64,000 bases of DNA from Aminobacterium sp. MB27-C1 (GTDB taxonomy: Bacteria; Synergistota; Synergistia; Synergistales; Aminobacteriaceae). Below are positions 20,436 through 25,183 of this stretch, piece after piece. How positions within the stretch are numbered: the first letter of the stretch is position 1; every line of letters starts with the position of its first letter. A program made the position numbers and the translations under genes. The notes under the pieces are model-generated. The model searched no databases. It was not told the origin of the DNA and worked only from the letters and a program-made list of their open reading frames with translations. The stretch spans positions 2,294,001 to 2,358,000 of the forward strand of contig NZ_CP133089.1 in assembly GCF_030908405.1 (NCBI RefSeq), in the 5' to 3' direction.

Positions 20436-20696
20436 TTAGCAATGTCCGTGGCAGCCGGCACAACCGCCACCGCAACCTCCACATCCGCCACCGCGGAGGG
20501 CTTCAATTGCTGGGACAAAAACATCCAGAATATCGCCAAGATCGCTAACACCTTCGTCGTTATCGGTCAGGCCAAAACTCTCTTTTATTGCAGGCACAGT
20601 ATCTGCTCCATCAACAATGGCTTGTACGATATCTCGAAGGGTGATGTTCTTCGATTTAATAACAACGGTTTCTCCAGGAACTATTCCCCAGTCCAT
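20436..20696 (-). CDS. Small protein with Cys/Gly/His-rich C-terminal tail, function unknown
   Basis: An 86-residue protein I cannot assign to a family. Residues 1-68 look like a small acidic helical domain; ITLRDIVQAIVDGADTV is faintly reminiscent of the helical BFD-type fold but has none of its cysteines. The last 18 residues are made only of Gly, Cys, Ala and His, with four CxxC-like spacings and two His, so the tail should bind a metal or Fe-S cluster. The ATG at 20696 has AAGGAGG 8 bases upstream; the longer reading from a TTG would use that ribosome site as coding. It has its own promoter and shares a terminator with the convergent copper ATPase, so a metal-related role is possible. Confidence 0.75.
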   Translation of the reverse strand: MDWGIVPGETVVIKSKNITLRDIVQAIVDGADTVPAIKESFGLTDNDEGVSDLGDILDVFVPAIEALRGGGCGGCGGGCAGCHGHC

Positions 20697-20728
20697 AACT
20701 TCTACCTCCTTCAATAGGGCATGGTGGT

Positions 20729-20895: not shown

Positions 20896-20924
20896 TTGAC
20901 GTAAAAGAAGCGAAAGGCTATTGT
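20896..20924 (+). promoter_or_regulatory. Promoter of the cobalamin-riboswitch transcript
   Basis: TTGACG (20896-20901) and TATTGT (20919-20924) are separated by exactly 17 bases; the expected start near 20931 is just before the aptamer. Confidence 0.65.
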
Positions 20925-20939
20925 ATGTTTACAATATGA

Positions 20940-21125
20940 CTTCATCAGGTGAACGGGAAGTTTGGTGAAAAGCCGACGCGGACCCGCCACTGTGAGCTTG
21001 ACGATGAAACATGAGACCACTGGGTAGGAATTAATGTGCCCGGGAAGGTGTTTCGGAGGAAGAAAGCGAGCCAGGAGACCGGCCTGTTGAAGAGAGGCAA
21101 ATCCCTGCGAGGATTCAGGACTATT
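20940..21125 (+). promoter_or_regulatory. Cobalamin riboswitch aptamer
   Basis: The class-I-type cobalamin aptamer is recognisable from its ordered conserved blocks: GGGAAGTTTGGTGAAAAGCC near 20955, GACCCGCCACTGT at 20981-20993, and the B12 box AGCCAGGAGACCGGCC at 21069-21084, followed by the closing strand ending near GGATTCAGGAC. It binds adenosylcobalamin or a related form and shuts down the downstream gene when B12 is plentiful. A terminator-type hairpin follows at 21173 as the expression platform. Confidence 0.93.
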
Positions 21126-21172
21126 TGTGGAAAAACTTTTCTTTCAAGAGAGGTTTTTTTCCTGTGAGCTTT

Positions 21173-21204
21173 ATGGCTGTCCTCGTTGGGACAGCCATTT
21201 TTTG
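21173..21204 (+). terminator. Riboswitch-controlled terminator
   Basis: ATGGCTGTCC (21173-21182) pairs with GGACAGCCAT (21189-21198) with a TCGTTG loop and a T-run to 21203. It lies between the aptamer and the AAGGAGG site of the first gene, as expected for an expression platform. A second weak hairpin (21129-21162, GGAAAAAC/GTTTTT-CC) lies between aptamer and terminator. Confidence 0.8.
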
Positions 21205-21222
21205 TTAAGGAGGATGGTACAT

Positions 21223-21711
21223 ATGAAATGGGCTCACGGGAGACTGACCCAATATGTTAATGAGTTTTCTCGACTTGATTTTGTTGAGAAGACCATTGAA
21301 GCTCTCGAGAATAGAAGTGAAATCCTTCCAGAAGTCACAAATATTTCAAAATCGAACGACGAGGTTCAAGCTCTTATAGCAGAATACATCGCTCATATTA
21401 ATGCATCTCTCAATGTAGAAGGAGATGTTCTAGTCTGTGCAGATTTTCTTGAAAAGACACGTTTATTTGTAGAACGTTTAAAGAAAGGACTCTCACAATC
21501 CTCGTTATATGGGGAGAAAAGACTAAGACTTCTTTGGGTAGAGGGATTAACCAATCTTATTTATGCTACACAAGATTGGTTAAAAACAGTGGTGCTTTGT
21601 TCGAAAGATGAGACGAAAGAAATATACCTCTCGTATTGCAAGGCTTGTCAGAGATCTATAGTGCGTTTTGAGAAAACAAGGCAAGCTATAACGAAGGAGG
21701 CCATAGCATGA
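21223..21711 (+). CDS. Unknown 162-residue helical protein under B12 riboswitch control
   Basis: I do not recognise this protein. It is soluble, 162 residues long, almost entirely predicted helical, and has Cys in LVCADF, VVLCSK and YCKACQR near the C-terminus. It lacks the signatures of PduO-, CobA- or EutT-type adenosyltransferases that I know. ATG 21223 is chosen because AAGGAGG lies 9 bases upstream, directly after the riboswitch terminator; a longer reading from 21127 would run through the aptamer and terminator. The next gene starts with ATGA overlap at 21708, so it is coupled to the acyl-CoA synthetase. It may be a partner or chaperone of a B12-linked process (inference). Confidence 0.75.
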   Translation: MKWAHGRLTQYVNEFSRLDFVEKTIEALENRSEILPEVTNISKSNDEVQALIAEYIAHINASLNVEGDVLVCADFLEKTRLFVERLKKGLSQSSLYGEKRLRLLWVEGLTNLIYATQDWLKTVVLCSKDETKEIYLSYCKACQRSIVRFEKTRQAITKEAIA

Positions 21712-23813
21712 CTTTGCGTGATCATCCACTCTACCCTCTTTTTTCTCCTCGAAGTGTAACGATTGTGGGAGCTTCAGCAGACCTTGATAGTTTAACTGGC
21801 CGGACTCTGAAAGCCATGCAACGCTTTGGGTATAACGGTACAGTTTACCCAGTCAACCCTAAATACGATCGTGTAGGGGGACTGCCTTGCTATCATGATC
21901 TCTCTGAAATTTCAGAGGCAACTGATGTTGCTCTTATTAGTATAAAGGCTCAGTTTGTTCCGGCTGCTCTTGAGACGTGCGCAGAAAAAGGGATACATAA
22001 CGTTATTATTTATTCTTCAGGTTTCGCGGAAACGGGCGATACGTCTTTACAGCAAAGAATGATGGACATCGCTCGGGAAGGCCATATTAGGATCCTTGGC
22101 CCCAACTGTCAGGGTCTCCTCAACCTGGCAGCAGGAATCCCCCTCACCTTCTCGGGCGCCCTCTATAACGTTGATCCTCCAACAACGGGTCACGTTGCTT
22201 TTATTTCTCAAAGCGGAGCCTTTGGTTTTTCGTCTTTTGGAGTAGGTCTCAACCACGGGGTACGATATCGTTATGTGGTTACTACTGGTAATCAGGCTGA
22301 TATTGATGCTGTCGAGTGTGCCGGGTATGTTATTCGAGATCCGGAAGTAAGACTTCTCATGATGTATCTCGAAGGAATTGATGACGGGGAGCGTTTTTTA
22401 CAGGTGGTAAGAGAGGCTCGAGAAAGAGACATTGCTGTTGCTGTTTTAAAAGCGGGACGCTCTCCCTCCGCCCAAAAAGCAGCTCAAAGTCATACAGCAG
22501 CTTTGACTGGAGACGAAGCTGTCTGGAAGGCCATATTTAAACAATACGGTGTTATTCCACTGGAAGATATGGACGATATTATCGGTATAGGCCAGCTGTT
22601 TGGAGCCTCTCCTCGTACTGACGGCAATCGGGCGGCTATTCTTACTACGTCGGGAGGCGCAGGCATAGTAATGGCCGATAGTCTCAATGATTTGAAAATG
22701 AGCGTTCCTGAATTTTCAACAGTAAGTAAAAAGAGTATAGAAGAAGTTATCCCAACTTTTGGGGCGTCGCGTAATCCGGTAGATATGACTGTGCAGATTT
22801 CTGAAAAACCGGAGAATTTCCGTCAAGTTCTTAATACGGCTCTCGGTGATCCTGATATTAGCATGGTTGTTACAGCTCTCTCAATGATTGTGGGAGAAGC
22901 CGGGAGTGTGATGGCGGAAGAGTTGATCCGAAGTTACGAGAAAACCCCGAAACCTCAAGCCGTAGTATGGATGATTGACGATGAACATGGCGAGACGTTT
23001 ATTGAACGACTTAAAAATGCTGGGATTCCTGTTTTTCAAAGCTTTAGACAGTGTGCTCGTGCTTTAAAGGCTCTCGTAAATTGGGGACAAAGGCGGAAGT
23101 TGCCTTCCCATACGATTGAAATGACGTCTTCTTTGCTTGGATCTTTCCCATTAAAACTGACAGAATATGATGCGAAGCGATTATTAGCACGGTATAACGT
23201 TCCTGTAACGCGAGAACATCTTTGTCGGGATATGGAAGAAGCTTTTGATGCCGCTGAAGAGTTAGGTTTTCCCGTTGCTCTTAAAGGAATGGCCGGAGAA
23301 ATTTTGCATAAGACCGAAGCTGATGTTGTAGCTCTCGATATTCGCTCTTTCGATGAGTTACGTCACGCTCTGAAGAAGACGAGAAAAAATCTTAAAGAAC
23401 ATGTTTCGGGAGAAAAAATCCAGGGCTACCTTGTGCAGGAGATGGTTAAAGGTGGTATGGAATGTATCGTCGGAATGAAGCGAGATCCCGTTTTTGGACC
23501 TATTGTTGCGGTAGGCCTTGGAGGCATATACGTCGAAGTTTTAAGTGATGTTTCTCTTCGCCATGCTCCTGTGGATGAGGAAGAAGCACTGAGAATGATT
23601 CAAGAATTAAAGGGTTTTGGCTTCCTTTCCGGTGCCAGAGGACAACGTCACAGAGATATTCATGCTTTGTCCAAAATTGTCAGTCAGGTTTCTCGTCTTG
23701 CTTGTGTTGAAGAAGACCTTCTTGAACTTGATATCAACCCAGTCTTTGTTATGCCTGAAGGAGAAGGTGCCATTGCTGCTGATGCTCTCGTTATCAGAAA
23801 TGGAGAAAAGTAG
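21708..23813 (+). CDS. ADP-forming acyl-CoA (acetyl-CoA) synthetase, fused subunits
   Basis: A 701-residue enzyme with the domain order of fused ADP-forming acyl-CoA synthetases: CoA-binding Rossmann domain (10-130, TIVGASADLDSLTGRTLKAM), succinyl-CoA-ligase-like domains (about 140-460) with phosphohistidine His262 in SHTAALTGDEAVW, and C-terminal ATP-grasp (about 480-695, FPVALKGMAGEILHKTEADV). It converts acyl-CoA, ADP and phosphate to the acid, CoA and ATP, a common energy-saving step in amino-acid fermenters. Acyl specificity cannot be read. It overlaps the upstream unknown gene by four bases and is therefore under the cobalamin riboswitch, which is unusual for this enzyme. Confidence 0.93.
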   Translation: MTLRDHPLYPLFSPRSVTIVGASADLDSLTGRTLKAMQRFGYNGTVYPVNPKYDRVGGLPCYHDLSEISEATDVALISIKAQFVPAALETCAEKGIHNVIIYSSGFAETGDTSLQQRMMDIAREGHIRILGPNCQGLLNLAAGIPLTFSGALYNVDPPTTGHVAFISQSGAFGFSSFGVGLNHGVRYRYVVTTGNQADIDAVECAGYVIRDPEVRLLMMYLEGIDDGERFLQVVREARERDIAVAVLKAGRSPSAQKAAQSHTAALTGDEAVWKAIFKQYGVIPLEDMDDIIGIGQLFGASPRTDGNRAAILTTSGGAGIVMADSLNDLKMSVPEFSTVSKKSIEEVIPTFGASRNPVDMTVQISEKPENFRQVLNTALGDPDISMVVTALSMIVGEAGSVMAEELIRSYEKTPKPQAVVWMIDDEHGETFIERLKNAGIPVFQSFRQCARALKALVNWGQRRKLPSHTIEMTSSLLGSFPLKLTEYDAKRLLARYNVPVTREHLCRDMEEAFDAAEELGFPVALKGMAGEILHKTEADVVALDIRSFDELRHALKKTRKNLKEHVSGEKIQGYLVQEMVKGGMECIVGMKRDPVFGPIVAVGLGGIYVEVLSDVSLRHAPVDEEEALRMIQELKGFGFLSGARGQRHRDIHALSKIVSQVSRLACVEEDLLELDINPVFVMPEGEGAIAADALVIRNGEK

Positions 23814-23920: not shown

Positions 23921-25183
23921 ATGAGCGGCATGACACCTTATCTTCAGACGAATCAGCAACGCATTGAACGAGACATTGAACACATAGCTTCCTTAGGTGC
24001 TACTGGAACATCTGCAGATGGGCGTACAAGCTTTACGTACAGCCTTCAAGATCTGAAAGTACGAAAATATCTTCTTGATATTTTTGAGGAACTTGGTCTT
24101 TCCGTTTTTATTGATGGTGTTGGCAATATCCGAGCTAGATACGCTGGAAGCAATCCAGATGCTTCTGTTGTGATGAGCGGTTCACATGTGGATTCAGTTC
24201 GGCGTGGCGGAAAATATGATGGCGTGGTAGGTGTTATCGGTGCTCTTGAAGCGATTCGAGTGATGAAAGAAAACAATATCACTCCAAGTCATCCCATTGA
24301 AGTGGTCATTTTTTCAGAAGAAGAAGGCTCTAATTTTGGTTCGTGTTGCGCCGGGAGTAAGGCTATGGTTGGCCGATATACTTTTGATGATTTGAATACT
24401 CTTAAAAATCTATCAGGTCAATCTATGTATAATTTAGCTAAAAATGCGGGATATGATCCTGATAATATGTCACGATATGTTCTTAACAAGGGTGAAGTAA
24501 AGGCCATGATTGAACTCCATATAGAACAAAGTCCCATGCTTCATTCTGTTTCCATGCCCATCGGTGTTGTAGAAGCTATTGCAGGTCTGAGACAAATCAG
24601 AGTTGAAGTTGACGGCGTTCCAAATCATGCAGGTGCTACGCCCATGAATTTCCGTCAAGATGCTCTTCTCGGTGCGGCGCATATGATTAGTGCTGTAGAA
24701 GAAGCTGTTCAGACAAAAGGAACCGAATCTACTGTGGGAACTGTAGGATATATGGAGAGTGAACCAAACGTTTCAAATATTATTCCAGGTAAAGTTGTAT
24801 TTTCAATAGATATTCGTGATGTCTATCAACAGCCAATGAACGATGTCGTGGAAGAAGTACGTAAAAGATTTGATGAAATTGCTCAGAGATATAACCTTAC
24901 ATTTTCTATGACGTTGCTGGGAGAGCAGGAAGCAGTACAGCTTTCTCAGGAAGTAATCAGCTCTATAGAAAAAAGTGCCCAAGCCCTAGGCATTCCGTAT
25001 AAGAAAATGAATAGTGGTGCAGTTCACGATGCTGTTCTTCTCTGTTCCGTTGCTGAAGTAGGGCTTATTTTTGTCCCGAGCGTAGATGGCCGAAGCCATT
25101 GCCCCGAAGAATATACATCCTACGAAGATATTAAGCGGGGAGCAGATCTGTTATTGGCAACATTGCTTGATTTAGCGAAATAA
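23921..25183 (+). CDS. Zn-dependent N-carbamoyl-amino-acid / allantoate amidohydrolase family (M20)
   Basis: A 420-residue M20-type hydrolase of the carbamoylase/allantoate amidohydrolase group. Metal ligands appear in GSHVDSVRRGGKYDG (His89, Asp100), SEEEGSNFG (Glu134 region), LHIEQSP (His about 198) and the late GRSHCPEE (His about 398). The dimerisation domain contains GVPNHAGATPMNFRQDALLG. It would remove the carbamoyl group from N-carbamoyl amino acids or act on a ureido acid. No hydantoinase gene lies next to it. AGGAGGGA lies 9-10 bases before the ATG. It converges with the giant activase gene with only 16 bases between stop codons. Confidence 0.88.
   Translation: MSGMTPYLQTNQQRIERDIEHIASLGATGTSADGRTSFTYSLQDLKVRKYLLDIFEELGLSVFIDGVGNIRARYAGSNPDASVVMSGSHVDSVRRGGKYDGVVGVIGALEAIRVMKENNITPSHPIEVVIFSEEEGSNFGSCCAGSKAMVGRYTFDDLNTLKNLSGQSMYNLAKNAGYDPDNMSRYVLNKGEVKAMIELHIEQSPMLHSVSMPIGVVEAIAGLRQIRVEVDGVPNHAGATPMNFRQDALLGAAHMISAVEEAVQTKGTESTVGTVGYMESEPNVSNIIPGKVVFSIDIRDVYQQPMNDVVEEVRKRFDEIAQRYNLTFSMTLLGEQEAVQLSQEVISSIEKSAQALGIPYKKMNSGAVHDAVLLCSVAEVGLIFVPSVDGRSHCPEEYTSYEDIKRGADLLLATLLDLAK

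Follow-up and report, generated by a model that had tools for sequence, protein, structure and literature searches.

A cobalamin riboswitch precedes an acyl-CoA synthetase operon in Aminobacterium sp. MB27-C1 (Synergistota), within the 64 kb stretch of DNA that we analysed as a whole (contig NZ_CP133089.1, positions 2,294,001 to 2,358,000; called the window below, with positions counted from its first letter), and comparison with related genomes leaves little doubt that the targeting of this ADP-forming acyl-CoA synthetase (ACS) by the riboswitch is conserved. That both riboswitch and operon are real is near certain. B12 riboswitches are known for the control of uptake, synthesis and isozyme swaps, and ACS is indeed the unusual target that an earlier sequence-only reading of the window had seen in it. 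As far as the open literature that we searched shows, it has not been described before as a target of this known class; no paper bringing together a cobalamin riboswitch, an acyl-CoA synthetase and a mutase was found there, subscription papers and riboswitch databases being outside the scope of the search. The reading that we favour, and to which we give an even chance, is that the operon serves as a low-B12 fermentation bypass. Control of an ATP-forming ACS would tie the energy yield and the end products of the fermenter (propionate or succinate) to the supply of B12, a vitamin that species share in anaerobic digesters and guts, and there this would be of importance.

Leader and operon structure

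RF00174 (Cobalamin) is the sole Rfam family matched across the window, and the aptamer is typical of its class: the match covers the model completely (1–189) and lies far above the gathering threshold of 31.5 bits (Table 1). Behind it follows an expression platform made of the P13 hairpin and an intrinsic terminator with a folding energy of about −18 kcal/mol, which is kept in the relatives. In duplex folding the P13 loop (L13) CGAGGA (21108–21113) can pair with UCCUCG (21180–21185) in the 5′ arm of the terminator. The promoter-like pair just 5′ of the aptamer comes from a consensus scan whose single matches are near chance level and alone no evidence of function. With a complete aptamer, P13 after it and a terminator before the first gene, the leader resembles the transcriptional OFF type of RF00174 found with btu genes, metE and nrd genes; it differs from this type in that its target encodes a carbon-flux enzyme and is no gene for uptake or biosynthesis or for a B12-independent isozyme. 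The riboswitch, the terminator and the coupled gene pair had all been named in the sequence-only reading, and the Rfam scan, the terminator scan with folding, and the open reading frames (ORFs) with their Pfam domains bear it out on all three.

Table 1: Features of the riboswitch–ACS locus in the window and of two riboswitch-led CoA-transferase loci in other genomes (G033, G035).
Feature	Position	Strand	Basis
Promoter-like pair TTGACG-17-TATTGT, just 5′ of aptamer	20896..20924	+	consensus scan, 9/12 (single matches near chance level)
Cobalamin riboswitch aptamer (RF00174), complete	20930..21101	+	cmscan 97.6 bits, E 3.9e-23
P13 hairpin, candidate antiterminator	21104..21119	+	sequence and duplex folding; inferred
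Intrinsic terminator, 11-bp GC-rich hairpin (21173–21198), then TTTTT	21173..21203	+	scan and folding
Ribosome-binding site AAGGAGG of helical gene	21207..21213	+	read from sequence
162-residue helical protein, genus-restricted	21223..21711	+	ORF; orthologues in 3/188 Synergistota genomes
Ribosome-binding site AAGGAGG of ACS, within 3′ end of helical gene	21694..21700	+	read from sequence
Fused alpha-beta ADP-forming acyl-CoA synthetase, 701 aa	21708..23813	+	Pfam, NCBIfam and PDB matches; motifs
CoA-transferase, first gene behind riboswitch	G035:C20 (L171:1198-3009)		
CoA-transferase, third gene on strand	G033:C2 (L172:1192-5645)		

The ORFs of the helical protein and of ACS overlap by ATGA (21708–21711). 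Pfam finds CoA_binding_2, Succ_CoA_lig, Ligase_CoA_2 and ATP-grasp_5 over their cut-offs and in this order in ACS, and the succession of CoA-binding, flavodoxin-like, ligase-CoA and ATP-grasp_5 parts expected of a fused ADP-forming acyl-CoA synthetase is present. The enzyme carries the catalytic-histidine motif SHTAALTG, whose histidine is presumably the phosphorylatable catalytic residue, and the motif LHKTEA; SHTAALTG is kept in all eight ACS of the riboswitch clade described below and aligns with the SHT of 8wzu. This ADP-forming 4-hydroxybutyrate-CoA ligase is the best solved relative (382 bits, full-length match), and with it and the archaeal ADP-forming acetyl-CoA synthetase 4xyl the window ACS shares the full-length domain set and the SHT and HKTE motifs. 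It differs from both in its upstream riboswitch and in its distance from the NCBIfam equivalogs, which all score far below cut-off (430 versus 1300 bits) and so point to no particular substrate. A second ACS paralogue of the same genome, which is one contig of 2.43 Mb, adjoins plsY-ctsR-clpC (C1:1549102-1551135) and is about 35% identical to the window ACS; it has SHVSVVAG in place of SHTAALTG, and thus its activity may be lost or changed.

Phylogenetic distribution

Our survey of ACS comprised 188 Synergistota genomes. ACS of at least 66% identity is found in eight of them (the copy of the congener G001 reaches 87% over the first 460 residues), and RF00174 lies directly upstream and in the same orientation in all eight. 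In the maximum-likelihood tree the riboswitch-linked ACS form a single clade with 100/100 support, and the riboswitch label needs only one change. This clade spans five genera and two families; G026, which belongs to the other family, clusters with the genus of the window, and therefore transfer or loss must have occurred. As both other genus members repeat the order riboswitch–helical gene–ACS, and five further genomes the riboswitch–ACS pair, the arrangement is beyond chance. The sequence-only reading had asked whether the gene pair stands under the riboswitch in other Synergistota as well; this holds for ACS in the eight genomes, whereas the helical gene is shared only by the three genus members. 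Closest by sequence to the clade, and of equal length, are ACS with about 50–55% identity, which differ in having no RF00174 match within about 1.5 kb (0 of 22 loci) and in their neighbourhood of plsY, ctsR, mcsAB and clpC; being a housekeeping one, this neighbourhood gives no hint on the substrate. A wider scan for ACS added only two riboswitch-bearing records of metagenome-assembled genomes, apparently from two genomes already counted. Relatives outside the phylum have about 27–35% identity, and no riboswitch was present in the four that were scanned.

Switching direction

We infer the direction of switching from the leaders themselves. All eight ACS leaders have a strong hairpin about 50–85 nucleotides past P13, or about 70–100 nucleotides past the aptamer, whose 5′ arm GGCCGUCC is conserved (GGCUGUCC in the window), and six of them show a U tract. 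In most of the eight, L13 reads CGAGGA and can pair with the 5′ arm of the terminator (GUCCUCG). When 71 leaders from the phylum are compared, L13 matches the 5′ arm of its own terminator better than those of other leaders (Kolmogorov–Smirnov p 0.0016, which is only a guide as the leaders are not independent), and no such preference is seen for the 3′ arm (p 0.28). OFF switching is the usual mode of cobalamin riboswitches (PMC11575231). They sense the ligand by a kissing loop between L5 and L13, and one is known to repress the B12-independent metE (PMC9600662). Because of the L13 pairing with the 5′ arm and this kissing loop, the ACS riboswitch is predicted to be an OFF switch, which we regard as likely from sequence. 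Without cobalamin, L13 would pair with the 5′ arm and keep the terminator from forming, so that both genes of the operon would be transcribed; with cobalamin bound, the aptamer would hold L13 in the kissing loop, so that the terminator could form and switch the operon off.

A different geometry was observed in two leaders (G014:C46:324-487 and G036:C1:81325-81486) in which the riboswitch directly precedes eutB, the gene of the B12-dependent ethanolamine ammonia-lyase (the former identified over the EutB model cut-off, the latter by sequence similarity). Here P13 and terminator are mutually exclusive, as a terminator-like hairpin shares sequence with the P13 region, and both leaders are candidate B12-ON switches.

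Metabolic role

The sequence-only reading had proposed that the operon is needed when a B12-dependent mutase such as methylmalonyl-CoA or glutamate mutase is idle. In the window's genome, as in the genus as a whole, the only mutase with a strong PF02310 (B12-binding-domain) match is methylmalonyl-CoA mutase. The one further evident B12 enzyme of this genome is a class II ribonucleotide reductase, and glutamate mutase is not supported, as no separate candidate passes there. The operon of methylmalonyl-CoA mutase also holds MeaB, a carboxyltransferase-like subunit, a biotin carrier and a Na+-decarboxylase-like membrane subunit (all but the mutase named by eye) and is the route from succinyl-CoA to propionyl-CoA. 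Aminobacterium colombiense produces propionate from alpha-ketoglutarate (PMC3035294). Deprived of B12, the route through the mutase has to end at succinyl-CoA. In Xylanibacter ruminicola succinate builds up instead of propionate when B12 is missing (PMC11575231). The mutase occurs in all six riboswitch–ACS genomes tested, but also in 36 of 41 genomes overall, and ACS is no isozyme of this enzyme.

We surveyed 89 cobalamin riboswitches from the window's genome and 40 relatives. Most stand before genes for uptake or for cobalt chelatase (named by eye), and in four genomes an NrdD-like reductase follows (by eye). In G035 and G033, which belong to two other families, the riboswitch is followed by a succinyl-CoA:acetate CoA-transferase (TIGR03458 and NF053853 over cut-off) with a leader of the same geometry as those of ACS. 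These enzymes exchange acyl-CoA and free acid as ACS does; they are unrelated to it in protein family and transfer CoA where ACS forms ATP. As two unrelated enzymes of this kind stand under the same switch, we argue that acyl-CoA disposal is what B12 controls. Aconitase follows the riboswitch at G035:C2:233439, G036:C1:22518 and G037:C1:920246; in the first of these loci the next genes are isocitrate dehydrogenase, CitD, CitE and CitF (aconitase by eye, CitE below the strict cut-off), which possibly provide a B12-free route from 2-oxoglutarate. As side observations, citF is also on the strand at the G036 locus, the G037 locus has two tandem aptamers (920246 and 920550), and in G033 a transposase-like ORF on the other strand breaks up the permease gene before the CoA-transferase.

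We favour the low-B12 bypass because the riboswitch also precedes CoA-transferase, aconitase–isocitrate dehydrogenase–citrate lyase and NrdD in the phylum; the sole strong B12-binding-domain mutase, together with the CoA-transferase and aconitase/isocitrate dehydrogenase/citrate lyase targets, makes an idle methylmalonyl-CoA mutase the best reading found of the mutase proposal. ACS would then be made when this mutase is without cofactor and would convert the blocked acyl-CoA into the free acid and ATP, so that CoA would be recycled and energy still gained without B12. Our best guess for this acyl-CoA, and a tentative one, is succinyl-CoA from 2-oxoglutarate. Somewhat short of an even chance stands the broader idea that cobalamin riboswitches of the Synergistota reroute amino-acid fermentation, with non-homologous B12-free outlets replacing the mutase route when B12 is gone; with similar reserve, we suggest ACS, succinyl-CoA:acetate CoA-transferase or aconitase–isocitrate dehydrogenase–citrate lyase as these outlets for 2-oxoglutarate and succinyl-CoA. 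Riboswitch control would in this case act on central carbon flux and not on a one-to-one isozyme.

Several observations weigh against a bypass of this kind. The MutA-MutB-MeaB operon itself stands behind a cobalamin riboswitch in eight genomes (G013, G014, G018, G020, G024, G028, G035 and G037), with which a simple low-B12 logic fits poorly, and three leaders of such operons (L056, L070 and L085) have an OFF-like geometry, paradoxical for a B12-dependent enzyme. SucCD adjoins KorABC in the window's genome and in G001; it could dispose of succinyl-CoA, for which ACS would then be redundant there. For SucC no match was found in G002, G007, G014 and G026, and its distribution does not separate riboswitch–ACS genomes from others. 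Concerning the leaders, those of G007 and G014 have no U tract, and the complementarity between L13 and the 5′ arm is not significant for single leaders in shuffles (fractions 0.06–0.45). Finally, ACS of G001 (G001:C1:1956138-1958233) is frameshifted at the alpha-beta linker into ORFs of 471 and 253 aa, which may reflect a pseudogene, a sequencing error or a natural split resembling the archaeal two-subunit enzymes. Independently of this, G018, G020, G035 and G037 were seen to have a second mutase of the 560+140-aa type.

The mutase operons behind riboswitches lead to another explanation, in which ACS performs the final ATP-yielding step from propionyl-CoA to propionate and the riboswitch matches the pathway to its cofactor, be it by ON switching or within a response to B12 scarcity in which the mutase is raised as well. 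The succinate CoA-transferase, which is a riboswitch target too, belongs to the normal propionate pathway (PMC11575231), and the geometry of the two eutB leaders is compatible with ON switching. The ACS leaders, however, are OFF-like in their P13–terminator spacing of about 50–60 nucleotides and in the complementarity of L13 to the 5′ arm, and no RF00174 match precedes the mutase–decarboxylase operon of the window's genome, so that we consider this explanation unlikely. We see as little probability in ACS being a general energy enzyme for acyl-CoA of the acetyl, isobutyryl or 4-hydroxybutyryl type, having no direct link to the mutase and responding to a flux that changes under B12 shortage. 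Such a role would agree with 8wzu as the best solved relative and with the low scores against the NCBIfam equivalogs, but the other unusual riboswitch targets of the phylum cluster around 2-oxoglutarate and succinyl-CoA. Very improbable, in our view, is an operon for corrinoid uptake, salvage or adenosylation with the helical protein as cobalamin factor and an ACS-like partner. Most cobalamin riboswitches, including most in the phylum, do precede uptake or synthesis genes, and the helical protein has no known relative; yet no cobalamin family is matched in Pfam or NCBIfam, five of the eight loci lack the helical gene, and ACS retains its catalytic-histidine motif. Compared with these alternatives, the low-B12 bypass remains the reading that we prefer.

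The helical protein and neighbouring genes

In the five loci without the helical gene the leader runs straight into ACS, so the riboswitch–ACS link does not depend on the helical protein, an add-on of this genus that probably has an accessory or coupling role. Apart from its three genus members, the 188 genomes gave only a broken fragment as a fourth match (E 0.003). As nonsynonymous substitutions (dN 0.079) are much rarer than synonymous ones (dS 0.40) between G001 and G002, two other species of the genus, it is a real protein, which diverges faster than ACS (dN about 0.6 versus 0.15 between the window's genome and G002). Its C-terminus KEAIA is conserved because the ribosome-binding site of ACS is encoded there. 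No significant match was obtained in Pfam, NCBIfam, PHROG, PDB, phage or plasmid searches, and pattern scans of genome and viral contigs gave no relatives. The sequence-only reading had also considered a B12-related factor. This idea is not supported, as the protein is confined to the genus, is missing from those five loci and has no match to cobalamin adenosyltransferase or other B12-factor families in Pfam or NCBIfam; its two orthologues have none to the B12-factor families of Pfam either. Similarities to YqeY (1ng6, E 0.014 over 58 residues) and to a sperm-tail domain (E 0.0099, below cut-off) were treated as chance, and the AlphaFold2 model of the lone sequence had a mean predicted local distance difference test (pLDDT) score of 46, too poor for a fold search.

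Downstream of ACS, at a distance of 107 bases, follows a gene for a hydantoinase/carbamoylase-type amidase (23921–25183; NCBIfam), which may or may not be part of the same transcript. On the other side, between the gene of a heavy-metal P-type ATPase and the riboswitch, lies an ORF of 92 aa on the minus strand (20436–20714), the tail of which is rich in glycine and cysteine (GGGCGGCGGGCAGCHGHC).

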